From assembly GCA_026003335.1 (NCBI GenBank), contig BPHB01000002.1, positions 310,001 to 374,000 on the forward strand: 64,000 nt of DNA, given 5' to 3'. Source of the DNA: Chitinophagales bacterium. GTDB lineage: Bacteria; Bacteroidota; Bacteroidia; Chitinophagales; CAIOSU01. This document shows positions 219-50,503 of the stretch, piece by piece. The notes below the pieces were generated by a model, which saw only the letters and a program-made list of their open reading frames with translations, was not told where the DNA came from and ran no database searches. The position numbers were made by a program, and so were the translations under genes. Within the stretch, counting starts at the first letter, position 1. The number at the start of each line of letters is the position of its first letter.

Positions 219-429
219 TCTTCGGTTTCCCGCGCAGATTATCTGCCCCTCATCTTTCCGGTTTCGGACGTGCGGCTGACAACCCCGGGCATTCAACCTC
301 GTTCACATTGCAGCCTTCTGTCTGAAATCACTTAGCAGAGCACTTTCCGACTACCGCAGCAACCTTTTCTGCGCATTTCCGTATCAGGAATTGATAACAC
401 CTTCAACTCTTAACCAAAAATCAAAGGTG

Positions 430-3400
430 ATGCATTTCAGAAAAAGGACCACGGCAGCTATACTGGCTGTTCTCCTTGTGTTTGCCTGGCAGCACGCCTT
501 CTCACAGGTTACCGCAAATTTTACCATGTCAAAAACCTCCGGGTGCAGTCCGCTGATTGTGCAGTTTACGGATGCCTCTACGGGCCCAGTTACATCCTGG
601 CAATGGAGCTTTGGTAATGGAAACGTTTCCAATCAGAAAAACCCGGGCGCCATTTATATCAATCCGGGCACGTATTGCGTACGACTCATCGTATCTGACG
701 GAGTCATCTCCGATACCATGATCAGTTCTCCCTGCATCACCGTCTTCCAAGAACCAGATCCCCGCATTGCCGCAGACGTCAGAGCAGGCTGTGCTCCTTT
801 GACGGTCAGCTTTACCGATAGCAGCATTGCAGGATCAGCTCCCATAACTACCTGGATATGGGACTTTGGCGATGGTACCACATCTACCAATCAAAATCCC
901 GTGCATACTTATGTAAATGCGGGAGATTACCATATTTCTCTCACTCTGATTGATGCAAACGGGTGTCAGAAAAACCGCACGTTTACCAATTTCATAACAG
1001 CCAGCCAGGTGCCTCTGGTAAACTTCGGCTCTGACAAAAACGCCTCCTGTGTTCCTCCTCTTACGGTAAACTTTGCTGACAGCACTCAGCCATCTTCCGG
1101 CATGCAATACTTTTGGGATTTCGGAGATGGCAATACTTCCACTGATCAAAACCCCGTGCACACTTACACAACTCTGGGAAATTTTACTGTAAAACTGCGT
1201 GTGGAAAGCGCTTCCGGATGTGCCGATTCCCTCTCCCGATTCAATTTTATAGCCATTGAAGATCTGGTAGCTACATTTACTGCCGACAAAGTGGAGGCTT
1301 GCGCAGGTGAAACCATTCATTTTTCTGACCTCTCCTCTTCCAATCCCAATACATGGGCATGGGATTTTGGAGATGGCAATACAGCTGCCGTAAAAAACCC
1401 GACTCATACCTTTGCCTCACCGGGCGTCTATACAGTTAGTCTTATAGCCGCCAATTCGGGGGCGTGCCGTGATACGCTCGTGTTAAATGATTACATCACT
1501 GTGAGCAGTTCTCCGATAGCGGATTTCTCGGCAGATGCCACGCAATCCTGCGCTGCCCCATTTACAGTGCAGTTTTCCGACCTTTCATCTAATGCCGTAT
1601 CATGGTTATGGGATTTCGGGGATGGCAATACCTCCACCGATCAGAATCCTTCGCATACATATACCTACATTGATACTTTTACTGTTACGTTAACAGTGAT
1701 GAATGCAGACAGCTGCTATCATACCCGAATCATATCTGACTACATTAAAATTTCTCCACCCAAAGTGCAGTTTGATGCAGACCACCGTTTTGGCTGCGCA
1801 CCCCGGGAAGTAGAATTTGCTGACTCCAGCATTTCATCTGACCCGATCGTCAGCTGGCTTTGGGATTTCGGAGATGGCAATACCTCCACCGATCAGAACC
1901 CGGTACACACGTACACAAACCGAGGCTCTTATCATGTATCGTTGACCATTGTAAATGCTTCCGGCTGCATGGCGACACTGGTTGATTCCTACTTTGTAGG
2001 CGTAGGATTAAAACCCACTATAGATTTCATTGCTGACCCCCTGGTGACCTGCCTGTTTCAACCGGTAACCTTTATCAACAACACCGTAAACTCCACTTCG
2101 TGGCATTGGGATTTCGGTGACGGAGGCACATCTGACGAATTTGAGCCCACACACACATACTCTGACACCGGTCATTTTACGATTACCTTAATTGCGCGGG
2201 ATAACGGCTGTCCCGACACGCTGGAAAAAGTAGATTATGTGTACATCTCTCCCCCTGATGCTGCCTTTAGCATTGAGTATAACTGCGATAATCCCTATGA
2301 AGTATCCTTTATTGACGCTTCCCTTGGACCCGATACATGGCACTGGGATTTTGGAGACGGCACTACCTCTACAGTACCCAGCCCCACCCATGTGTACAGC
2401 AGCCGAGGTTCATATACCGTTACCCTGACGGTGACCAACCTGTCCACCGGCTGTACGGATGTGGAAACGCAAACCGTTCACGTAACCCAACCTGCTGCCG
2501 CATTTATTGGGGCCCCGACATTCGGCTGTCGCCCGCTCACGGTCAATCTCACCGATGGATCCATAGATGCCACAGCCTGGCAGTGGCAAGCCGGTGACAT
2601 GACTTCCTTTTCTCAACACCCCTCTTTTACCTTTGTTGATCCGGGCACTTATGACGTTTCCCTCATCATCACAGACATACATGGCTGTATGGACACCATA
2701 ATAAAAACAAACTACATAACCGCAACCGGTCCGATAGCCGCCTTTGGCTCAAACCCGCTCACCGGCTGCGCTCCGCTGGATGTACATTTTACTGACTCCT
2801 CTCAGGCCTCTCTTTCACCTATTACTTCCTGGAACTGGGATTTTGGAGATGGGACCACCTCCGCAGATCAACATCCGGTGCATACATACGCAAGCGCAGG
2901 TTACTTCACCGTAACTCTTACGATAACCGATGCGGACGGCTGCCAGCATGCGATGACTAAATCCAATTACATCAAACCCACATTTCCCCATCCTGATTTC
3001 AGCGCAGACACATTGTCCTGTACATCGCGTAGTGTTCAGTTCGTGAATATGTCTGTAGGCGAAGGCATGAGCTTTCTGTGGGATTTTGGCGACAACAACA
3101 TATCCACGGCCACCAATCCCGTTCATACTTATACACAGGAAGGTATCTATACCGTTTCCTTAACTGTTACGGACGTAAACGGATGCGATTCCACTTATAC
3201 TATACCCGACTACGTACGTGTAGCTGACCCGGTGGCACATTTCGGAGCCGATAGCACCTTTGCCCCCTGTCCTCCCCTACTGGTTTATTTCAATGACAGC
3301 TCCACAGCGGATGTGCAGGCATGGCAGTGGTTTTTCGGTGATGGCTCTTCCAGTTCTCTGCAACAACCATCACATGTGTATTCTGCTCCGGGAGTATATG

Positions 3401-6141
3401 ATGTAACACTCATCGTAACCTCCTATCTGGGATGCAAAGACACCCTGTTCAGGGATGATTATGTACGGGTACTTGGCCCAACGGGCACTTTTACCTTTAC
3501 TCCCGGCAGCGGATGCTTAAATCAGCAGATTGATTTCAGCGCAACAACACAAAACACAGCCGCCCGTACCTGGGACTTTGGCGATGGTACCCTAGAAAAC
3601 GGGAATGACTCTACCAGCCATTCTTACACTGCACAGGGTATTTATCATCCGGTGCTCATTCTGGATGATGGAGTAGGTTGCGTTTTTGCGGTTCCCTCTC
3701 CGGATTCCATTGTCATAGGAGACATCACGGCTTATTTTGAAGCCGGTGAAGTCAAACCCTGCCCCTATGAAACCGTTCAGTTTACGGACCTCAGTGTTTC
3801 ATTTCCCGGTATCGTAAGCTGGCAATGGGATTTTGGAGATGGGCATACATCCACATTGCAACACCCCACCCATAGCTATGATACTGCCGGATACTTTGAC
3901 GTAATGCTGATAGTGAGCAATGGTATCTGCCAGGATACAATCATCCGGGAGGATTACATTTATGTAACTCCATTTCCCAAGGCTGACTTTGTCCTGTCGG
4001 CCGATTCAGGCTGTATCGGCACACAAATCAGTTTTCAGGACAATTCCACCTATGATAGTCTGATTGTCTCATGGGATTGGGATTTTAATGATGGAATGTA
4101 TGACTCGGTACAGCACCCAACTCATATTTACAATCTGCCGGGATTATACCAAGTACAACTCATTGTTACCTCTGCTACCGGCTGTAAGGACACAACCAGC
4201 AAATATGCTACCATCTATCCGCTGCCTGTGGCTTTTGCCGGACCTGATACAGCCGTTTGCCGGGGAACACCGCTGTTGCTGAGCGGCAGTGGCGGCATCA
4301 GTTATCAATGGTCTCCCGTCTCCGGTCTGGATAATCCGAATATCGCTACCCCAACGGCTACCCCTTCGGATACAACAGAATATATTCTCACGGTAACTGA
4401 CCTGCACGGCTGCCAAAGTCAGGATACCGTAGTGATAAATATACTGGAGGTTCCAGTGGCCGATGCAAGAGAAAATGCGGCTATTTGCATAGGCAATACG
4501 GTGGAAATACAGGCTAGCGGGGGAACAAGCTATCTGTGGACTCCTTCTGCATCACTGAATTGCAGCACCTGTACCACAGTGATTGCCTCCCCGGATACTA
4601 CAACTACCTATGTAGTGAGAGTGGGCAACGACTTTTCATGTTATGATTATGATACGGTAACGGTTACCGTTAATCCCCGGCCAGCAGGCATCATCACCCC
4701 GGATACGGAAATATGTGTCGGAGAAAGCATTACCCTGGAATCTCAGGATGGAGTGCAGCATTTCTGGAGTGCTGATTCCAGCCTTAGCTGCATCCACTGC
4801 CCAAATCCTGTAGCCACTCCTGCTGCTACCACCATGTACACCCTGTTGCTGTATAATCAATACAATTGCGACACGTATGATTCCGTGAAAATAACTGTTC
4901 GCCCGTTGCCGGACATTGTGATACAAGCAGAAAATATCTGCCAGGGCGACACCACCCGGTTGATAGCCAGCGGAGGGTTTATTTACAATTGGAGTCCTGC
5001 TACAGGTTTAAGCTGCAGCGGTTGTCCGAATCCGCTTGCCTATCCGGACTCCTCTACTACCTATCAGCTTCAGGTAATCAATGAGTTCCAGTGTGTAAAC
5101 TATGATTCGGTTACCATTCATGTATTTCCACTTCCGGCAGTAAAAACATCCGAAGATTTGGTTATTTGCAAAGGGGAAGAAGTAAAGCTCACCACCGAAT
5201 ATGTAAACACAACGGGCGTAATGTGGACACCCTATAACGGCATGAAAGACTCGCTGCAGTGGAATCCTATTGCCCGACCTGATGCCACCACTACTTACGT
5301 GGTAACGGCATATAACGAAGCCGGCTGTGCTGACAGAGATACAGTCACCATTACTGTTATCCAGAAAGTAGAGGCCAGTGCGGGCAACGATATTACAATC
5401 TGCTATGGTCAAACAGCACAACTGCAGGGTGAGATTTACCAGCACGGCAGCATGGATGTCAATGTGATTTGGTATCCGGTAAATTATCTGAACAACAGCA
5501 CTATCTTAAACCCTGTAACAACCACTACCCAAACCATGACCTATACCATGGTAGCCTTCAGCGGATTTTGTGAACCTGACACCAATACGGTAACTGTGAC
5601 GGTCAACCCTCAGCCGGTGATTGAACTGGGTAGCAATCGTGAAGTGCTCTCACAAACCGAAATAACTCTACAACCGGAGGAGGCCAGCAACAACATTGTG
5701 GAATATTCCTGGACTACCACCGGCATGAATCTTTCCTGCTCTGACTGTGAAAGTCCTTCCTTTATCGTCAATGCAGACAATAAACTGGTAGTTACTGTGA
5801 CAGACGAAAACGGATGTACGAACAAAGATTCTATCCAAGTGCGGGTAAAAGGCCTGTGTGCGGACAACATTTTTGTACCAAAGGCCTTTACTCCCAACAA
5901 TGATGAGCGAAACGACAAGCTATTTATCCGTGGCGGGCAATATATTGCTGAACTGCAGTATTTCCGGATTTTTGATCGCTGGGGTAATCAGGTGTTTGAA
6001 ACGCAGGATATCCGGGAAGGCTGGAACGGCATGTACAATGGTAAAAAGATGAATCCGGCTGTGTTCGTCTATGCCATCAAAGGAGTCTGCACAAACGGTG
6101 AGTCTTTATTCAAAAAAGGAAATGTAACCCTATTGAGGTAA
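430..6141 (+). CDS. Giant secreted PKD-repeat protein with T9SS type B (CHU_C) sorting domain
   Basis: About 1900 residues. I place the start at 430 (MHFRKRTTAAIL) because it begins a clean signal peptide ending FSQ; an upstream in-frame ATG at 391 would bury it. The body is about 15 PKD-like modules with the WDFGDG...NPxHTY signature (a few degenerate, for example WQWQAGD and WDWDFND), then about seven Ig-like repeats of about 75 residues with paired cysteines and a Y/W-x-W-x-P pattern. The last about 90 residues (FVPKAFTPNNDERND ... FDRWGNQVFE ... GWNG ... FVYAIKG) are the gliding-motility-associated type B sorting domain. The protein should cross the outer membrane through the type IX system and act at the cell surface, probably in adhesion. 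No enzymatic domain is visible. A strong hairpin terminator follows. Confidence 0.95.
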   Translation: MHFRKRTTAAILAVLLVFAWQHAFSQVTANFTMSKTSGCSPLIVQFTDASTGPVTSWQWSFGNGNVSNQKNPGAIYINPGTYCVRLIVSDGVISDTMISSPCITVFQEPDPRIAADVRAGCAPLTVSFTDSSIAGSAPITTWIWDFGDGTTSTNQNPVHTYVNAGDYHISLTLIDANGCQKNRTFTNFITASQVPLVNFGSDKNASCVPPLTVNFADSTQPSSGMQYFWDFGDGNTSTDQNPVHTYTTLGNFTVKLRVESASGCADSLSRFNFIAIEDLVATFTADKVEACAGETIHFSDLSSSNPNTWAWDFGDGNTAAVKNPTHTFASPGVYTVSLIAANSGACRDTLVLNDYITVSSSPIADFSADATQSCAAPFTVQFSDLSSNAVSWLWDFGDGNTSTDQNPSHTYTYIDTFTVTLTVMNADSCYHTRIISDYIKISPPKVQFDADHRFGCAPREVEFADSSISSDPIVSWLWDFGDGNTSTDQNPVHTYTNRGSYHVSLTIVNASGCMATLVDSYFVGVGLKPTIDFIADPLVTCLFQPVTFINNTVNSTSWHWDFGDGGTSDEFEPTHTYSDTGHFTITLIARDNGCPDTLEKVDYVYISPPDAAFSIEYNCDNPYEVSFIDASLGPDTWHWDFGDGTTSTVPSPTHVYSSRGSYTVTLTVTNLSTGCTDVETQTVHVTQPAAAFIGAPTFGCRPLTVNLTDGSIDATAWQWQAGDMTSFSQHPSFTFVDPGTYDVSLIITDIHGCMDTIIKTNYITATGPIAAFGSNPLTGCAPLDVHFTDSSQASLSPITSWNWDFGDGTTSADQHPVHTYASAGYFTVTLTITDADGCQHAMTKSNYIKPTFPHPDFSADTLSCTSRSVQFVNMSVGEGMSFLWDFGDNNISTATNPVHTYTQEGIYTVSLTVTDVNGCDSTYTIPDYVRVADPVAHFGADSTFAPCPPLLVYFNDSSTADVQAWQWFFGDGSSSSLQQPSHVYSAPGVYDVTLIVTSYLGCKDTLFRDDYVRVLGPTGTFTFTPGSGCLNQQIDFSATTQNTAARTWDFGDGTLENGNDSTSHSYTAQGIYHPVLILDDGVGCVFAVPSPDSIVIGDITAYFEAGEVKPCPYETVQFTDLSVSFPGIVSWQWDFGDGHTSTLQHPTHSYDTAGYFDVMLIVSNGICQDTIIREDYIYVTPFPKADFVLSADSGCIGTQISFQDNSTYDSLIVSWDWDFNDGMYDSVQHPTHIYNLPGLYQVQLIVTSATGCKDTTSKYATIYPLPVAFAGPDTAVCRGTPLLLSGSGGISYQWSPVSGLDNPNIATPTATPSDTTEYILTVTDLHGCQSQDTVVINILEVPVADARENAAICIGNTVEIQASGGTSYLWTPSASLNCSTCTTVIASPDTTTTYVVRVGNDFSCYDYDTVTVTVNPRPAGIITPDTEICVGESITLESQDGVQHFWSADSSLSCIHCPNPVATPAATTMYTLLLYNQYNCDTYDSVKITVRPLPDIVIQAENICQGDTTRLIASGGFIYNWSPATGLSCSGCPNPLAYPDSSTTYQLQVINEFQCVNYDSVTIHVFPLPAVKTSEDLVICKGEEVKLTTEYVNTTGVMWTPYNGMKDSLQWNPIARPDATTTYVVTAYNEAGCADRDTVTITVIQKVEASAGNDITICYGQTAQLQGEIYQHGSMDVNVIWYPVNYLNNSTILNPVTTTTQTMTYTMVAFSGFCEPDTNTVTVTVNPQPVIELGSNREVLSQTEITLQPEEASNNIVEYSWTTTGMNLSCSDCESPSFIVNADNKLVVTVTDENGCTNKDSIQVRVKGLCADNIFVPKAFTPNNDERNDKLFIRGGQYIAELQYFRIFDRWGNQVFETQDIREGWNGMYNGKKMNPAVFVYAIKGVCTNGESLFKKGNVTLLR
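1621..1898 (+). repeat. Near-identical direct repeats coding PKD cores
   Basis: A 26-nt stretch encoding DGNTSTDQN occurs without mismatch at 1621-1646 and 1873-1898, and a close copy lies near 1129-1155. Neighbouring PKD modules are otherwise well diverged at the DNA level, so these copies look like recent internal duplication or gene conversion within the large PKD gene. Confidence 0.7.
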
Positions 6142-19845: not shown

Positions 19846-22800
19846 TTATCTGGCAATCACCAGCTTCTGCACCTCACTGAACCCTTTTTCGGTTTTTACC
19901 GCCACCTGATATATGCCGTTGGCGAGGTCTGCAATCCGGAGTTGGAGGCTGATAGGGGCGCCAAAAGTCTCAGCTTTTGTCTCTAGAACCATACGCCCGC
20001 TGAGGTCATACACCATAATTTGTATTTGTTGTTCGTTAACCCCCGGAATTATCAGCAGGTTGACCACATCCTGGGCTGGGTTAGGATGTAAGCTGAAGGT
20101 AAGAGGCTTGTATTCCTCAGCAAACCACTCTTGGTTACTTTCAGATTCTTTGAAGACCGCATTACCTGCACCTGCGGCCAAAGGCGTTTGCGGACAGGGA
20201 TTGTTAGACAATATCGTCACATCATAGTCCTCCGTTTCACCTATACTATAGGTACCGCAGGCATCCGTAAACTGGTCGCTTATCTGTACCCGCAAACGGA
20301 TGCAACCGCCACAGGCATAGGCAGGAACAGTAAATACAGCAAATGGTGCAAGCGTGCCAAAGCCCTGCCATGCCAGTTCACCGGGATCATCAAAATCCTG
20401 ATCATTATTCCAGTCAGCCCACAGCCTCCAGTGTGCCTGGAAGGCAGCTATGGTAGTAGCCCCTTCTACGCGCATGATATAGGTTTTTCCAGCTTGCAGC
20501 TTTCTGGAGCATAAGCTATGGTAAGCATATCCGCCATCATCACCCGACTGGGTGCTACCTACCCTCTTTATCCAGGCAAGCCCGGTATCCTGTCCGGATG
20601 ACGGGCAATAGCCACTATGGCAGGCTCCCTGTGTAAAGGTGGTGATGCCATGCCAATGCTGAGCCACACACGCATTCGGATAGGTATTCCCGTCACAACC
20701 GCAAACCGGTTGATAGACCATGGGGCAGGGAGTGCTGTCAATCAGTATAGGTTCCACGCAACCGGTAACATAAATGGAGTCGCAATGCACATCATAGCAA
20801 GATCCATTATTGCTGGAAATAGTCAGACACACTTTGTACCACCCGCTTACGGCATACAGATGAGCCGGATTGGGAAGAGTAGAAGTGGTACCGTCTCCGA
20901 AATCCCACAACAAACGATTGTAATTACCGGTTGAATGATTGAAGAAATACACTTCATTGGTAACGGAAGGATAAGCCACCGTGAAGGCTGCCTGACAGGT
21001 ATTGTTGCACGGTCCGGGCGTCCAGTTGGTTACCCCGTGCTTGTTGCGGGCTACGCATGCATTCCGGTATGTAACCCCGTCACATCCACATACAGGTTTA
21101 TAAACAATCGGACAGGGAACCATTGGTTTGATCAGAGACGGATTGATACACGGATTTCCCGTGATGACAATGGTATCACAGAAGGTGTCCTGACACCAGT
21201 TCACGGAAGTATTACTCAAAACACTTTTAATTGTCAGGCATACCTTGTAGGTACCCGGATGGCTGTAGAAATGCACCGGATTTTTCTGATTGGAGAAAGT
21301 ACCATCGCCAAAATCCCAGCGATATTGCAGCAAATGACCGCTTGATTGGTTGGTAAATGCCACTGTTCCGGTGTTCGTATATGTATATGTAAAGTGGGCA
21401 TCACAGGGCTGCGCGTTCTGACAGGGGCCCTGACGCCAGCTGGTAATGCCATGTCTATACCTGGCTATACAGGCGTTGGCATAGGTAACACTGTCACATC
21501 CGCATACCGGCTGGTACACCTGAGGGCATACTATTGTTGAATCAATCAGTGATGGATCCTTGCATCCGGTGGCAAACTGAATAGTATCGCAGAAAGTATC
21601 TGTAAACACCGGTCCCATAGGTGTGGTCTTACAGGTAATGGTCAGGCAAACCACATAGGTGCCGTTATGGGCATAGTTGTGTGCGGGATTTTGTTGGGAG
21701 GAAGTGGTTCCGTCACCAAAATCCCAGTGCCAGCTTAAAATGTTTCCGCCAGACAAGTCAGTGAAGAAAATAGTCGGAGGCAGAATACCGTAGTGCCACG
21801 TGAAATTGGCCTTGCATTGTCCTCCGTTGCACGGTCCGGGGGTCCAGCGTGTCACACCATGTTTCTGCGCCTCACAGGAGTTGGCGTAAGTAACTCCATC
21901 GCATCCGCAAACAGGGCTATAGAGCGTAATACATACCTGATTTGGATCAATCAACATAGAATCAATGCAGGGAGAAGGATGCCCTACCGCTACCGAATCG
22001 CAATAGGTATCGGTGCAGATGGTCCCGTTGGAGAGGGGCACGCTGATGGTAAGACATACATAATAAACACCCGGAGCATTGTAGGTATGTAGCGGATTCG
22101 GGTCGGTAGAAGAGCTTCCGTCACCAAAATCCCAGCGAGATACCATGTTAGGAGATACATTTGGAGAAGACGTGTTATTAAACTGCACGGTTAAAGGAGT
22201 GGAAGCCGAGCCACTTTGTGTTGTGAACGATGCCTGGCAGGTAGTGCCTCCTACTACTTCGCAGGCCGATGCTGAGCACCCCTGTGCATCCGTGACCGTC
22301 ACACAATAAGTGCCCGGCTGAAGATTACAAAGAATAGGGCCTGTTGCACCGGTATTCCACAAATACGTGTAAGGAGAAGACCCGCCTGAGGCGGCTGCCA
22401 TCAGGCTTGGCAATGGTCCCATACAGGGACCCGGACCAATTGTCACCGTGACATTACATCCTGGGCCTGGGCAAGGACCGGGGGTCCATTGTGTGACACC
22501 CGCACATTGTGCTTCACAGGAGTTTCCATAAGTAACCCCATTACACCCGCACACGGGAGCATAAATCAACGGGCATATACAGTTAGGATTAATCTGAGTA
22601 GGGTCAATACACGGATGCAGATTGTTGCCCACTCTAACGGAGTCGCAGAAACGGTCTCCGCAGATTATACCGTTGGGCGTAGTGACGGTGATATCCAGAC
22701 ATACATAGTAAATGCCCGGAGCCGGAAATACATGATATGGATTCTGGTCTGTGGAGGTATGACCATCTCCAAAATCCCAGCGGGAAGCATAGGAAACACT

Positions 22801-23541
22801 GCTGCCGGATGACGAATGATTCGTAAACGAAACTCCATTACCTGAGGAATCCCGGGTGTAAGAGAAAGCCGCCTGACAACCTTGTGAGCAGTAGCCAGGG
22901 GTCCAGGTAGTAACGCCATGATGGTATTTGGCCACACAATCATTAGGGTAGATTAACCGGTTGCAACCACATACCGGATCATAAACCGTGGGACACGGAC
23001 GATTATCTATCAGGGTAGGATCAACGCAAGGAGGATTGGCATGTATGACGATGGTCTTGCATATAGAATCTGTACACAGCACCCCAGTAGCAGGGTTGGT
23101 TGAAACAACCAGACACACCGTGTAGGTGCCGGCAGCCTGATAGGTATGGGAAGGACTCCAGGCGGCAGAAGAAGTGCCGTCTCCGAAGCTCCAGGAAGCG
23201 GAAAGATAGGTATTATTCCCACCGGTGGAAGCATTGTTAAACTGTACCGACATTCCGTTGATGACATAATTAAAATCTACCTGACAGCCTGAGGATACCG
23301 TGCAGGGGCCGTGAGTATAGCTTGTCACCCCCCCATGATTGACTGCCTCGCAGGCATTGCCATAAGTAACCCCGTTGCACCCGCATACCGGATCATAAAT
23401 CTGCGGGCACATGATGTTCTGATTGATTAGCGCAGGGTCCACACAGGGCTGTCCCTGTGCAGCCGGGCTGATTGCCATAATACAGAGTACAAGGCTGATG
23501 AATAATAGCAGGCTTGCGTTGATTGTGCTTTTCATGGCCAT
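19846..23541 (-). CDS. Secreted protein alternating seven Kazal-like and six PKD modules, with GEVED and T9SS type A domains
   Basis: About 1231 residues from the ATG at 23541 (MAMKSTIN; a second ATG at 23535 is equally possible), giving a signal peptide ending AAQG. Seven Cys-rich modules of about 45 residues read C-P-x-x-Y-x-PVCGC-(D/N)-GVTY-x-N-x-C ... HG(V/I)T-x-W-x-x-G-x-C, the Kazal/follistatin-like pattern. Six PKD modules (WDFGDG) separate them, with one SprB-like repeat (about YTYLWNTGATGP) after the third. Then a GEVED domain (WADWNNDQDFDDPGEL) and a Por sorting domain ending KLVIAR. By family knowledge Kazal modules inhibit serine proteases; whether these do is inference. A hairpin terminator follows. 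Confidence 0.93.
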   Translation of the reverse strand: MAMKSTINASLLLFISLVLCIMAISPAAQGQPCVDPALINQNIMCPQIYDPVCGCNGVTYGNACEAVNHGGVTSYTHGPCTVSSGCQVDFNYVINGMSVQFNNASTGGNNTYLSASWSFGDGTSSAAWSPSHTYQAAGTYTVCLVVSTNPATGVLCTDSICKTIVIHANPPCVDPTLIDNRPCPTVYDPVCGCNRLIYPNDCVAKYHHGVTTWTPGYCSQGCQAAFSYTRDSSGNGVSFTNHSSSGSSVSYASRWDFGDGHTSTDQNPYHVFPAPGIYYVCLDITVTTPNGIICGDRFCDSVRVGNNLHPCIDPTQINPNCICPLIYAPVCGCNGVTYGNSCEAQCAGVTQWTPGPCPGPGCNVTVTIGPGPCMGPLPSLMAAASGGSSPYTYLWNTGATGPILCNLQPGTYCVTVTDAQGCSASACEVVGGTTCQASFTTQSGSASTPLTVQFNNTSSPNVSPNMVSRWDFGDGSSSTDPNPLHTYNAPGVYYVCLTISVPLSNGTICTDTYCDSVAVGHPSPCIDSMLIDPNQVCITLYSPVCGCDGVTYANSCEAQKHGVTRWTPGPCNGGQCKANFTWHYGILPPTIFFTDLSGGNILSWHWDFGDGTTSSQQNPAHNYAHNGTYVVCLTITCKTTPMGPVFTDTFCDTIQFATGCKDPSLIDSTIVCPQVYQPVCGCDSVTYANACIARYRHGITSWRQGPCQNAQPCDAHFTYTYTNTGTVAFTNQSSGHLLQYRWDFGDGTFSNQKNPVHFYSHPGTYKVCLTIKSVLSNTSVNWCQDTFCDTIVITGNPCINPSLIKPMVPCPIVYKPVCGCDGVTYRNACVARNKHGVTNWTPGPCNNTCQAAFTVAYPSVTNEVYFFNHSTGNYNRLLWDFGDGTTSTLPNPAHLYAVSGWYKVCLTISSNNGSCYDVHCDSIYVTGCVEPILIDSTPCPMVYQPVCGCDGNTYPNACVAQHWHGITTFTQGACHSGYCPSSGQDTGLAWIKRVGSTQSGDDGGYAYHSLCSRKLQAGKTYIMRVEGATTIAAFQAHWRLWADWNNDQDFDDPGELAWQGFGTLAPFAVFTVPAYACGGCIRLRVQISDQFTDACGTYSIGETEDYDVTILSNNPCPQTPLAAGAGNAVFKESESNQEWFAEEYKPLTFSLHPNPAQDVVNLLIIPGVNEQQIQIMVYDLSGRMVLETKAETFGAPISLQLRIADLANGIYQVAVKTEKGFSEVQKLVIAR

Positions 23542-23762
23542 TGGGTTTTGGGTTTGTTTTGATAGCCGAAAATTACTCCTCTGGTACAGGGCAGGCAAAG
23601 ACAAAAATTAAACTTTTCCAAAAAAATTATTCGCTTGCAGAAGGGATATCCCCTGGCCTTATTCGGGCATAACCTTCATAAATAATTGAAAATCAGAACT
23701 ACTTTGTTTTCCGGGTGACTAACACTTATGGCGCTGTTCCGTGTATTCACTGAATTCCCGGA

Positions 23763-44171: not shown

Positions 44172-44538
44172 GGGCCTGACCGGTATTGACAGCAGGGAAG
44201 ATGGTTTACCGGCATGCCGAGCATTGTTTGTTGGCTCGTAAATCTCAACAACACAGCTTTACTTTAAATGGCGAAGTCAATTACGCCATGGCTGCTTAAT
44301 ACAAGGTATTAAGCGCCTTTGCTCTCCATGGGTTTAACCCGATGAGCCCGCGGAAGAGCATCGTTTTTATCGGGTCGTGCGGCACGTATGCTCCGATGTG
44401 TCGTGACGTATTCAGGAGCCCGGGAGATGGTCAGGTGTGCTGCCTCAGCTTCCATCTCCTTCAATAAACAGGCAGCTAAGCATGTAGTCGGTAAATGGTC
44501 ACCTTGTCTGGACGTGGGTTCGATTCCCACCAGGTCCA
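44172..44538 (+). ncRNA. ssrA: Transfer-messenger RNA (tmRNA)
   Basis: The 5' end GGGCCTG (44172-44178) pairs with CAGGTCC (44531-44537), one G-U, to form the acceptor stem, with A44538 as discriminator and CCA not encoded. The T arm is GTGGG-TTCGATT-CCCAC. The tag reading frame at 44270-44299 is GGC GAA GTC AAT TAC GCC ATG GCT GCT TAA, giving GEVNYAMAA, the Bacteroidota GExNYA(L/M)AA type. tmRNA rescues stalled ribosomes with SmpB, encoded at 62339. The antisense frame over its 3' half is a known artefact. Confidence 0.96.
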
Positions 44539-44756
44539 CTTATTCTTTTACAATTTAGACGATTCCGCTTTCTTTCCCTTTCAGTTGAAAAGGCTTGCTT
44601 CATAAGTCATTCTGTATCGTTTCTTTCTTTATCAGCAGCAACAAATACTGTATCCGAATTACTTTGTACTGCACCCGAAACACGTTATTCCGCTGGTTAT
44701 ATGCATTTCCTCTGTAAGAGGGGTTATATCCTATCTGTTTAACTTTACTCCAGGCC

Positions 44757-46423: not shown

Positions 46424-49400
46424 TTAATCAGAAGTAAATCTAAGAATTCTCTTCACCCTTCTGCAATCCCCCTTTTGCACTTCAAGAAAGTATATTCCAC
46501 GGGGCATGTTCTTTAAATTCAATGTTTCGCTGGTGTTTCGCATGGTGTGCTGGAGCCAGAGCTTCCCTGCGACATCAAACAGCCGTACCTGCGATGCGTT
46601 GATTCCCTGCAAGCTGATGCGCACCTCATCGGCAACGGGATTGGGAGCAACGGAAAGCCCCAGGTCGCAATCAACTCCCACAATGGTGATACTGGTTTCC
46701 CTGGTCACTGAGGCGTGCATTCCGTTTGTATGCCACACCTTTGCCTGCAGATGAAATACCCCTGTGGTATTGAATGTGTAAGAAATCGGTTCTTCCACGT
46801 TGCTTGCCGAAGCCACTTCTACGCCATTCACGTAATAGCGTACTTCAGTGATATCCTGAAGATTGGTTTTCACCTTCAGCGGTACGCTTTTATTTACGTA
46901 GATCAGGGCATGGTTTTGCGGCTCGGCAAGCATCAGTTGCATGAAAGGCGCGGTGCCGTTTTCCTGATCATCCAGTTGGAGGAGATATGCAATAAGGTCA
47001 GATGCTTCCTGCCCGGTAAGATTAGATAAATCACTATGGCGAAGGGTATTGTCACGGGCATTCAGCGCTTCCCACAGCGTCAGCTTTGAACCGTCATGCA
47101 GATAGGGAGCGCCCAGCCATAAGCCTTTCAGTGTGGGCACATCCAGTCCCAAAAGCGGGCGGCCCAGGCGCGTGCCACTGGTAGGTTTGATGGTTCCCAC
47201 ATCGTGCAGCAGTCCCGTTTCGCTGTCGGTAAAATCCCTGCCTCCATGACAAAGGCCGCATTGCAGCCTGGCAAACACCTGCTTACCACGCTTTCCTTCT
47301 TCAGTCAGGCTGCCGTCAGCGTTGCGATAGGGGCTGATGCCGAAGTTGTCCAGTGAGGCAATGTAGGCAGCCAGGGCATCCAGATCGTCAGAAAACCCTG
47401 CCTTTGTATCGCCCATGGGCTGGCTGCGCGAGCCAACATGAAAATCCACATCACGCATGAATCCTCTTCCACCGGCAAGGTCGCGTATCTGCCCTTCAAA
47501 ATCCTGTATCTCGTCAAAATTTCCCGTCCAGTGTACCGGTCCATGCTTCATGCCTGCGCGCCCGTTGAGCGGAATGGTGTTGCGCAATCCCTCCCCGAGC
47601 TGCGTGAGGTCCCACACTCTGCCGTCATGATCTCCATCCAGATGGCACGTGGCACAGCTCAGGTATTTATCCTTGTTCATGCGGTTGTCATTGGCATTGT
47701 AAAAAATCTTTTTTCCTTTCAGTACTATGGGGTCCATGGTTTCATTCTTCACGGTCACCACGTCACCGATTTTGGTGATCTCGGCCGACACCTGGTTTAC
47801 GATCCTGGAGATATCGTAAGCGCTTATCGTCCGTGAAAGGAAGCCATGCACAAACAAGGTGTCGCCTGTTGGGCTCAGGACCAGCCCCTGTGGTGCAGCG
47901 CCAACTCCTTCAACCGAGGTTATCAGAGCGCTGGTGTAAGCATCAAACACATCCACACGGTCATTGCCTTGCATGGAAACGAAGATGAGGTTGGCAAATC
48001 GGGAGAAAGCCGCAAATGACGGAAGGTCGCCATTGTTGATGTCAATGCGGGCATTGTAATCTTCTTCGCGTGACTGAAGGTTGATGAGCGCTACCATCGG
48101 GCGTACGGTGTTTTCAAAATTCAGCGGCTCACCGTCACGCAGCAACCCGCGGAAGGTGTTGTCTTTCTTGGCAGGAACAAGCGCCAGCCGGCCATCGGGA
48201 GAAAGCGTCACTGAATTCAGGTAGTTGACCACTCCCTTGCCGCTGATCTCTGAGTCCACGCTTTGATCGGGAGCCAGCTTTACGGTTTTCAGCGGAGTGA
48301 GCGTCTCGGCATCCAACAATGCAACTTCTCCGCTATCGCGGAAATTGGTGATAAACTTTGTAACAAACAGAAGCTGATTATCTCTTGAAACGGCAAGCCC
48401 CTTCGGGAAAGAGCCGATGGCTATTTCATCTTCCACAGTGCGGGAAGACACGTCTATTTTAGCCAGCTTGCCGGTGGCATACAGGCTCACATAGGCTTTT
48501 TGCTTGTCGGGCCGGATAACCAACGCCACAGGCATAGAACCATGGGGCAACGCAATGGTTTCCATGTTGCCTGTGTTATCATCATAGATCTGAATGGTGG
48601 CGTCATCGCGATTCAGAATCCAAATTTTTCCATCGCCATCCTGTGCAAGTGATGCCGGATGTTTTCCTGTAGAAACTTCCTTCAAATAAGAAAGCGATTG
48701 GATATTGGTCTTGGTCACTGTATTGTTATCCGGATTCACATTCCATACATGGTGGCCGTCTTTATCCAGCAATATTGTTGTTGCTTGTGCGGGCAGGGCG
48801 GAATCAATCCGTTCGTGTACGGTGTGGCGGATGTTGCAGGTGCTTTGTGAAACGCCATCGTTGATTACCACCAGCACGGTGTAGGTGCCTATATTCTGGT
48901 AGATGTGATTGGCAAAGGTGTCGCTGGTAGGTCCATAGGAAGTTCCGTCTCCGAAATTCCAAAGGAAAGTTGGAGTGCCCAGCGTGTTATAGGCACGGAC
49001 TTCAAATCTGGAGTTAAAGCCTAATTCAACGAAAGACTCTCCTTTGAGTCCGCAACCCAGGAGGTGTAATGAGCTTCCGGTAGAAAATTTGCTGAGGAAG
49101 TCGGATGCCAGCGGATTGCCCGCATAATCCCGCAGTCCCCCAGCCGGCAGAAAAATTTCATACACTTTATCAGGATCCAAAGGAAATCGTGGGGTAAAAT
49201 TCACAATGCCGAACTGGTAGCTGTAGGTTCCTTCCAGGGGTTGACCTCCTAAAGGACGTACGATAAAAGTTTGCTCGTTGATGGATGCATACTCAATGCC
49301 ATCGCTGAAAGTGATTCCAATCCTGGCGGTCAATGCTTGATTGAGGGCATTATCAGCAGGCATTACCCGCGTAACCACCGGTGGAGTTCGGTCAGGATCC

Positions 49401-50503
49401 GTTTGATGTACAATAAGGCCGCTGCCCGTGCCATGGTCATTTCCCACCAGCACAAGATTGCCCAATGCACTGGCAAAATCATGATCGCTGTCGGGTATAT
49501 TGGCATTACCGTTCCCTAAAGGTATGATATTAGCCGGGTCTGTAATGTCCAGTTTATGATAGTCTTCTGACATACCAGCGTGCACAAAATGATCCTGTAC
49601 ATTGAGATAACCGCCAATACCACTCAGGGTCGGTGAGCTTCCCAGTTTCTTAATATCACCGGGGTTTGATATGTCCCAGATGTGTACTTTCTGGTCAACG
49701 GCAACAGAAATAAAATAATTGCCATTCACCATGCCGCTGTACATGATTGTGCCTACATCTGTATCCAGCAGCACAGGGGTGGTGGGATCGCTGATATCAA
49801 GGGTTGCCAGACCAAGGGCGTCCATAGAACTCACTACCAGCAGATTGCCTACAGCGAAAATCGGCCCTATACGAAATCCTCCAGTTTGCGTGATCGGTAC
49901 CTGCCTGATCAAAACAGGCGCGGAAGGAACGGAAGCATCCACTATGTAAAAACCATTGCTGGATCCAGCAACATAGAGATACGGGGCCTGCACGGCAACC
50001 CACCATGCTCCGGTGGTGTAGTCACTTTCCTGTACACCCGGAAGCACCAGATTAGCCGCTAATGTAGGAGACTGCACGTCTGTCCAGTCCCAAATCTGAA
50101 TGCCTTCAATGGTTTGTAACGCCACGTAGTCGCGTTCACCTATTCTGAAAAATCCATAGCCGTGCCCTTCGCGTATCTTTTCGGTTTCGGCATCCACTTT
50201 TGTGAGCACGGCCTGGGGATTGCGCGGGTCGGAAACATCCATGAAAGCGAAGCCGCCCCCCCGTTCACCGGAGTCATGTGCCAGGATCAGAGCGAGATAC
50301 CCTTTAAACATCATGGCATGGCCGTGACCCAGCGGGGCGCCATTTTGCGCGCTGAGAACGGCAATGGGTTTAAAAAGCTCACTGGCAGAGTAGGTGAGGT
50401 TGCCTAATCCAGGGCCATTCTGCATGGATCTTTTCTTGGGGATAAAGGCAGGGCCTGAAAGCAATACCGGGATTAAAAAAAGCAAAAGGATTATTCTCTT
50501 CAT
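46424..50503 (-). CDS. T9SS-targeted fusion: LVIVD repeats, Big_5, PKD, beta-propeller and di-haem cytochrome
   Basis: 1359 residues with a signal peptide ending SGPA. Order: LVIVD-type repeats (about 45-370, for example FYIVDASVPSAPVLI, LATLDISDPTTPVLL), a bacterial Ig-like Big_5 domain (about 375-475), one PKD module (about 500-575, FLWNFGDGT), a YVTN-type seven-bladed propeller (about 580-920), then a di-haem cytochrome-peroxidase/MauG-like region with haem motifs CATCH (950-954) and CGLCH (1082-1086), an Ig-like stretch and a Por sorting domain ending RFTSD. It should be a surface or released c-type cytochrome; electron donor and substrate unknown. Downstream VOC pseudogene is probably a separate unit. 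Confidence 0.93.
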   Translation of the reverse strand: MKRIILLLFLIPVLLSGPAFIPKKRSMQNGPGLGNLTYSASELFKPIAVLSAQNGAPLGHGHAMMFKGYLALILAHDSGERGGGFAFMDVSDPRNPQAVLTKVDAETEKIREGHGYGFFRIGERDYVALQTIEGIQIWDWTDVQSPTLAANLVLPGVQESDYTTGAWWVAVQAPYLYVAGSSNGFYIVDASVPSAPVLIRQVPITQTGGFRIGPIFAVGNLLVVSSMDALGLATLDISDPTTPVLLDTDVGTIMYSGMVNGNYFISVAVDQKVHIWDISNPGDIKKLGSSPTLSGIGGYLNVQDHFVHAGMSEDYHKLDITDPANIIPLGNGNANIPDSDHDFASALGNLVLVGNDHGTGSGLIVHQTDPDRTPPVVTRVMPADNALNQALTARIGITFSDGIEYASINEQTFIVRPLGGQPLEGTYSYQFGIVNFTPRFPLDPDKVYEIFLPAGGLRDYAGNPLASDFLSKFSTGSSLHLLGCGLKGESFVELGFNSRFEVRAYNTLGTPTFLWNFGDGTSYGPTSDTFANHIYQNIGTYTVLVVINDGVSQSTCNIRHTVHERIDSALPAQATTILLDKDGHHVWNVNPDNNTVTKTNIQSLSYLKEVSTGKHPASLAQDGDGKIWILNRDDATIQIYDDNTGNMETIALPHGSMPVALVIRPDKQKAYVSLYATGKLAKIDVSSRTVEDEIAIGSFPKGLAVSRDNQLLFVTKFITNFRDSGEVALLDAETLTPLKTVKLAPDQSVDSEISGKGVVNYLNSVTLSPDGRLALVPAKKDNTFRGLLRDGEPLNFENTVRPMVALINLQSREEDYNARIDINNGDLPSFAAFSRFANLIFVSMQGNDRVDVFDAYTSALITSVEGVGAAPQGLVLSPTGDTLFVHGFLSRTISAYDISRIVNQVSAEITKIGDVVTVKNETMDPIVLKGKKIFYNANDNRMNKDKYLSCATCHLDGDHDGRVWDLTQLGEGLRNTIPLNGRAGMKHGPVHWTGNFDEIQDFEGQIRDLAGGRGFMRDVDFHVGSRSQPMGDTKAGFSDDLDALAAYIASLDNFGISPYRNADGSLTEEGKRGKQVFARLQCGLCHGGRDFTDSETGLLHDVGTIKPTSGTRLGRPLLGLDVPTLKGLWLGAPYLHDGSKLTLWEALNARDNTLRHSDLSNLTGQEASDLIAYLLQLDDQENGTAPFMQLMLAEPQNHALIYVNKSVPLKVKTNLQDITEVRYYVNGVEVASASNVEEPISYTFNTTGVFHLQAKVWHTNGMHASVTRETSITIVGVDCDLGLSVAPNPVADEVRISLQGINASQVRLFDVAGKLWLQHTMRNTSETLNLKNMPRGIYFLEVQKGDCRRVKRILRFTSD

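Follow-up and report, generated by a model that had tools for sequence, protein, structure and literature searches.

A single open reading frame (ORF) on the minus strand of the 64,000-nucleotide stretch analysed here (contig BPHB01000002.1 of a Chitinophagales bacterium, positions 310,001 to 374,000; hereafter the window) encodes a 1359-amino acid (aa) multidomain protein with two haem-binding sites. The di-haem part of this protein was found to be closest to the gamma subunit of hydrazine synthase (HZS), both in sequence and in predicted fold, and its C terminus matches the sorting domain of the type IX secretion system (T9SS). The protein is probably a surface-exposed or secreted di-haem c-type enzyme that carries out a peroxidase-type oxidation of a partner or polymer outside the cell. 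This estimate rests on the di-haem domain and on the associations seen in relatives, and its weakest step is the substrate in the source organism. The features of the gene were as follows.

46424..50503, minus strand: whole gene, 1359-aa multidomain protein (single ORF, ATG start, translation)
50444..50503, minus strand: hydrophobic leader, residues 1-20, probable Sec signal peptide (read off the sequence)
49397..50422, minus strand: LVIVD-repeat region, residues 28-369, probably a first propeller (Pfam LVIVD)
49082..49396, minus strand: Big_5 immunoglobulin (Ig)-like domain, residues 370-474 (Pfam, 1.5e-18)
48824..48982, minus strand: PKD domain, residues 508-560 (Pfam, 1.9e-9)
47753..48781, minus strand: YVTN-type beta-propeller, residues 575-917, like HZS beta and 1l0q (AlphaFold2, VIA, Foldseek)
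46964..47743, minus strand: di-haem domain, residues 921-1180, HZS-gamma-like, of the superfamily of bacterial cytochrome c peroxidases (bCCP) and MauG (phmmer, profile, VIA)
47642..47656, minus strand: haem I site CATCH, residues 950-954, predicted catalytic haem (70 of 70 members)
47528..47533, minus strand: invariant His991-Trp992 pair, between the two haem sites (70 of 70 members)
47246..47260, minus strand: haem II site CGLCH, residues 1082-1086, predicted low-spin electron relay (70 of 70 members)
47096..47098, minus strand: invariant His1136 in a PYLHDG motif (70 of 70 members)
47036..47038, minus strand: His1156, predicted distal ligand of haem II (loop conservation; aligns on a His of HZS gamma)
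46763..46930, minus strand: Big_7-like Ig domain, residues 1192-1247 (Pfam, 7.9e-4, under cut-off)
46445..46654, minus strand: T9SS type A C-terminal sorting domain, residues 1284-1353 (TIGR04183, 44.2 bits; PF18962, 44.4 bits)

The original prediction had described two CxxCH sites joined to LVIVD repeats, a propeller and a Por sorting domain. Both CxxCH sites are real; shuffling the protein 2000 times gave a mean of 0.0015 sites and no shuffle with two, and a chance pair was rejected on this ground. The other elements were borne out by Pfam with the coordinates right, and Big_5, PKD and Big_7 were found in addition. Over their Pfam cut-offs were, besides Big_5 and PKD, LVIVD (residues 165-200, 6.7e-11), the Cytochrom_D1 propeller (628-744, 4.9e-6, 25.8 bits against 25.5), Cytochrom_C (1070-1176, 1.6e-6), RoxA-like_Cyt-c (1122-1149, 1.2e-6) and Por_Secre_tail (1286-1352, 2.1e-11; cut-off of PF18962, 27 bits), while the NCBIfam cut-off of the sorting domain model TIGR04183 is 23 bits. 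Homologues with the same fusion were found, in which the order of LVIVD/Big_5, PKD, propeller and di-haem domain recurs, and an assembly chimera was rejected on account of this shared order.

When the di-haem part was compared with NCBIfam, the best models were the HZS beta-gamma fusion (4.3e-19) and HZS gamma (1.1e-18), both far under their cut-offs; the top match of the whole protein was a propeller model, PQQ_ABC_repeats (2.7e-21, under cut-off). HZS gamma (5c2v_C) was matched by phmmer in the PDB at 1.6e-16 and ranked first of 31 with a profile of the di-haem domain (2.4e-32). The AlphaFold2 model of the di-haem domain alone had a predicted local distance difference test score (pLDDT) of 81.9 and a predicted template modelling score (pTM) of 0.82, and that of the propeller and di-haem core reached 89.5 and 0.92. 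By VIA-align the di-haem model was nearest to HZS gamma, with Z 18.1 and a root-mean-square deviation (rmsd) of 3.0 over 222 residues, compared to Z 11.2-14.0 for the listed members of the group of MauG, bCCP, BthA and MbnH, the next best match being at 14.0. These findings, from sequence and predicted structure, place the di-haem part closest to HZS gamma; the earlier label "MauG/peroxidase-like" holds at the level of the superfamily and fails as a statement of nearest kin. Membership in HZS itself was rejected, since the curated cut-offs were missed (68.1 bits vs 1250, 67.3 vs 625 and 36.2 vs 560) and the third haem cysteine is absent. Membership in MauG was rejected because the NCBIfam TTQ_mauG cut-off was missed (26.2 bits vs 443.85). 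The modelled propeller resembles HZS beta (5c2v_B, VIA Z 36.1, rmsd 2.0 over 304 residues), nearly tied with 1l0q_A, second at 34.3.

For the residue alignment, 70 members were used (69 of 80 fetched loci and the window protein; the 11 loci left out were near-copies or partial). Invariant in all 70 were C950, C953, H954, H991, W992, E998, E1003, C1082, C1085, H1086 and H1136. A by-eye count of the printed loops around residue 1156 found a His in 69 of the 70, the window protein among them, and a Met in L092. By sequence, a His in this loop does not fit a Met-His second haem of the bCCP type. An automatic count of loop His over a narrower range gave 55 of 70, and alignment column 1156 itself held a His in 54 members, a gap in 14 and another residue in two. 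In a profile alignment, His1156 falls on a His of HZS gamma. Because the loop His is nearly universal and aligns in this way, haem II is probably bis-His, with His1086 and His1156 as predicted ligands, as in HZS gamma-II. The gamma-II haem has been reported to be bis-His (PMC12607021), and the second haem is Met-His in bCCP and Tyr-His in MauG (PMC6405878). Haem I (His954) has no evident sixth ligand from the protein and looks open, as would suit a catalytic site.

When 84,980 species genomes were scanned for two conserved peptides, 384 relatives came up, and the best 80 of these 384 were fetched. They came from Bacteroidota (31), Pseudomonadota (22), Verrucomicrobiota (9), Planctomycetota (8), and also from Chloroflexota, Myxococcota and others. 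The core is rare, occurring in 4 of 395 genomes of a phylum sample and in 3 of 396 of an order sample, the source genome included in each. Among 68 C-terminal parts (the window and the 67 of 69 loci with at least 60 aa there), Pfam matched Big_7 in 37, Por_Secre_tail in 31 and CBM_3, a carbohydrate-binding module (CBM), in 25. Among 68 N-terminal parts (the window and 67 of 79 loci, 12 being over the size limit), PKD was matched in 67, Big_5 in 46, LVIVD in 24 and the galactose-oxidase Early set domain in 14; with the LVIVD region of the window as phmmer query, that region was the better N-terminal match in 27 of 82 sequences, window included. L034, L044, L051 and L089 have a short core ORF preceded immediately by ORFs that are related to one another, a pattern that would fit a split or frameshifted gene.

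A recurrent association with cellulose was found in the Bacteroidota relatives, where genes for cellulose degradation surround the gene in marine bacteria. In the Tenacibaculum-like genome G365, the di-haem protein itself carries CBM_3, and its gene lies beside those for a glycoside hydrolase (GH) of family 5, a GH5-CBM3 protein and a GH48, each of which has a sorting domain. Of the 31 Bacteroidota loci, 19, all Aquimarina or Tenacibaculum, have a gene for GH48 or GH5 within three genes, compared to none of the 49 others; many of the loci counted come from one genus, some have short flanks, and cellulases of other types could escape. CBM3 was found inside the protein in 25 of the 31 and in none of the 49. 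The cellulase and CBM3 phmmer queries were both cut from one locus, L023 of G365, which equals L082, and L082, one of the 19, matches itself. Outside the 19, Flexithrix (L068) carries a GH5-CBM6 gene at a distance of two genes. Flaviramulus (L090), the tree neighbour of the window, has GH43 and alpha-galactosidase genes nearby, and two relatives of the same order as the window, L110 and L111, carry CBM_35. By blastp at 1e-20, and leaving aside the 17 listed Aquimarina loci, no neighbour family was common to more than four loci, and therefore no general gene partner was found.

A second association is with copper-radical oxidases, which make peroxide. An N-terminal part like galactose or glyoxal oxidase was present in 16 sequences (15 of the 80 loci and L025). 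The Cys, Tyr, Tyr-His and His, which we take to be the copper-radical site, were complete in 12 of the 14 with a complete N-terminal part, Ala replacing the Cys in two. A di-haem peroxidase in the same polypeptide could naturally use the peroxide made there as its substrate. At L025 6883-14325 and in the 15 loci, for example L080, L085 and L107, the oxidase-like domain is joined to the propeller and di-haem core, in some with PA14. In a quick tree, L090 and a 13-member clade made up wholly of the copper-oxidase type grouped with the window core (SH-like approximate likelihood ratio test, SH-aLRT, 92; branch not starred); the window protein and L090 themselves have LVIVD N-terminal parts. At 1e-25 the six other genomes of the family gave no match to the core, and the di-haem part alone matched in five of them at 1e-11 to 1e-13. 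The GC content of the gene is 0.509 compared to 0.473 for the window, only slightly above that of its neighbours. From the absence in the family, the tree position and the GC content a horizontal gain was weighed, and no transfer is claimed.

The T9SS signal named in the original prediction proved to be a type A sorting domain over its cut-off, and the source genome contains SprA_N (7.4e-173) and 324 candidate C-terminal sorting domains (CTD), of which at least 150 are over the cut-off (all of the 150 scored). A check for cytochrome c maturation genes found assembly genes in that genome, including a CcmF. The haem of c-type cytochromes is attached in the periplasm. Since the sorting domain, SprA, CTD matches and cytochrome c assembly genes are all present, haem attachment in the periplasm followed by passage through the T9SS is plausible. 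Sorting domains recur in the relatives, in 31 and 32 of the 68 C-terminal parts by two counts, window included. The T9SS labels per locus (31 of 31 Bacteroidota loci) are circular, their model having been built from those same tails, and were not relied on. Elsewhere in the source genome, at about 929.7-932.6 kb of contig C1 (L026 4659-7607), an MbnP gene lies beside a CCP_MauG gene, recognised by Pfam, and a second di-haem gene, recognised by its match to the window protein; this is likely an MbnP/MbnH-type set. By eye, the ends of these two di-haem proteins (375 and 339 aa) have no sorting domain.

Taken together as a mechanism, the protein would cross the inner membrane by its signal peptide, receive two covalently attached haems in the periplasm and, by virtue of its C-terminal sorting domain, be taken outside by the T9SS. 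Its propeller and di-haem core would be built like the fused beta-gamma part of HZS, with haem I as the reactive site and with electrons fed through the bis-His relay haem II. The likeliest chemistry would be a peroxide-driven (or O2- or nitric oxide (NO)-dependent) oxidation of an extracellular partner or polymer, and in relatives the partner would probably be cellulose, its degrading enzymes or the fused copper-radical oxidase.

Several results weigh against this assignment. Peroxidase chemistry is an assumption from the superfamily, and the CCP_MauG match in Pfam was under its cut-off (0.025, 15.6 bits vs 25.6). The cellulose link comes from relatives elsewhere in the tree, mostly of one genus; the window protein has no CBM match in Pfam, and its genome gave no match to CBM_3 or to LPMO_10, the latter a lytic polysaccharide monooxygenase (LPMO) family (each matched in one of 14 control genomes; cellulases were not searched in the source genome). 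The near neighbours of the gene encode a glycosyltransferase 9, a phosphoenolpyruvate (PEP)-utilising enzyme and an adjacent 233-aa ORF without a Pfam match. The copper-oxidase domain GO-like_E_set was found neither in the source genome nor in the Tenacibaculum-like G365, and therefore no such peroxide source was seen in either; this model was silent in 14 control genomes and matched in G236. No T9SS CTD match was found in the same-order relatives L110 and L111; by eye, the tail of L110 is dockerin-like. For the propeller, Foldseek ranked 1l0q_A first and 5c2v_B second, and phmmer against the PDB matched the archaeal surface-layer propeller 1l0q at 7.1e-21, HZS beta not being among the matches listed.

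The original prediction had left the choice between an extracellular redox enzyme and an electron carrier. The enzyme is favoured by the cellulose and copper-oxidase associations, and since there are only two haems a long-range carrier appears less likely. A pure carrier, which would pass electrons on to an oxidase, to minerals or to partners at the surface with no catalysis of its own, is rather unlikely. It would suit the apparently bis-His haem II, and cytochrome domains of CBM-bearing Cellvibrio and Teredinibacter proteins have been proposed to feed LPMOs (PMC8981238, PMC10916295, PMC12542752). In contrast, the invariant His-Trp pair and two Glu by haem I suit an active site, the source genome has no LPMO_10 match, and one study of Teredinibacter X183 reports that, under the conditions used, LPMOs received no electrons (PMC10916295). 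Still less probable is a surface scavenger of hydrogen peroxide with a protective role for the cell and no polymer as its target. The superfamily fold and the fusion of relatives to peroxide-making oxidases are consistent with it, but it does not account for the cellulose-binding module and the neighbouring cellulase genes that recur in Bacteroidota. An NO-reducing or HZS-like reaction, in which haem I would make hydroxylamine from NO, the role proposed for haem gamma-I of HZS, is very improbable. HZS gamma is the closest solved relative of the di-haem part and His144 of HZS falls on the invariant His991 in one alignment, but in another it falls on Val990 and in the phmmer alignment on Pro989. 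Moreover, HZS Cys165 corresponds to Ala1010 in both alignments, any Cys within residues 1000-1020 occurs in only one of the 70 members, HZS_alpha (PF18582) had no match in the source genome (nor in any control genome), and non-anammox homologues are reported to be without key residues (PMC12758564). Retention in the periplasm, where haem is attached, is equally improbable given a sorting domain well over its cut-off that recurs in relatives, and a genome with SprA and many CTD matches.

The preferred reading, an exported oxidising enzyme, has an extension that we regard as tentative and rather doubtful: Bacteroidota may have their own oxidative attack on polymers, in which a T9SS-displayed di-haem enzyme of the HZS beta-gamma-like kind works beside GH48 and GH5 on crystalline cellulose, replacing or joining LPMOs, while in sister lineages a copper-radical oxidase on the same chain makes the driving peroxide, the window protein being a version for another substrate. 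If true, this would point to a specific candidate for an oxidative attack on cellulose in Bacteroidota, where the efficient use of cellulose by Cytophaga and Sporocytophaga with no recognised cellobiohydrolases or LPMOs has been called enigmatic (PMC6247017). If the enzyme reading is true, relatives of an anammox enzyme would be delivered by the T9SS to the outside of ordinary bacteria, and this would bear on the evolutionary origin of HZS.

Among known systems, HZS beta and gamma of anammox bacteria (PDB 5C2V; fused in Ca. Scalindua japonica) share the succession of propeller and di-haem domain; the window protein differs in scoring far under the HZS cut-offs without the third haem cysteine, and in its added T9SS tag, LVIVD, Big_5 and PKD. 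The fused HZS beta-gamma homologues described outside anammox by Hagglund et al. 2025 (PMC12758564), in several phyla including Bacteroidota, likewise have a fused propeller and two CxxCH sites; sections 7-8 and further passages of that paper make no mention of sorting domains, of CBM3, of cellulase genes nearby or of fusions to a copper oxidase. MauG, bCCP, BthA and MbnH share the di-haem fold, the two CxxCH sites and the Trp of the first domain, and MauG and bCCP differ in the ligands of the second haem, which is probably His-His here. The rubber oxygenase RoxA, to our knowledge not a T9SS cargo, is more distant in fold (VIA Z 10.2) and has rubber as its substrate. It gives a precedent as a secreted di-haem enzyme that acts on a polymer outside the cell (PMC6797691), and the window protein has a short RoxA-like Pfam match. 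Cbp2D and Cbp2E of Cellvibrio and TERTU_2913 and TERTU_3803 of Teredinibacter are also exported multidomain c-type cytochromes tied to polysaccharide degradation, but they belong to another phylum and have X183 and X132 cytochrome domains, and the CBM2 of Cbp2D has a counterpart in relatives (a CBM within the protein) and not in the window protein. The main text of PMC10916295 does not use the words 'propeller', 'diheme' or 'peroxidase', and 'cytochrome' is absent from that of a 2023 review of T9SS effectors and from that of a 2026 paper on Aquimarina-type cellulose and alginate enzymes. Titles and abstract beginnings among the literature matches listed named no T9SS-exported di-haem protein.

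PHROGs gave no match, and Rfam gave none apart from a transfer-messenger RNA (tmRNA) gene at 44172-44541 on the plus strand of the window. Two other large proteins in the window carry T9SS domains. The first (391-6141, plus strand; 1916 aa) has 15 PKD_4 stretches and a CHU_C type IX secretion signal domain at its end. The second (19846-23604, minus strand; 1252 aa) combines Kazal-type protease-inhibitor matches, six PKD_4 stretches and GEVED with a T9SS sorting domain.

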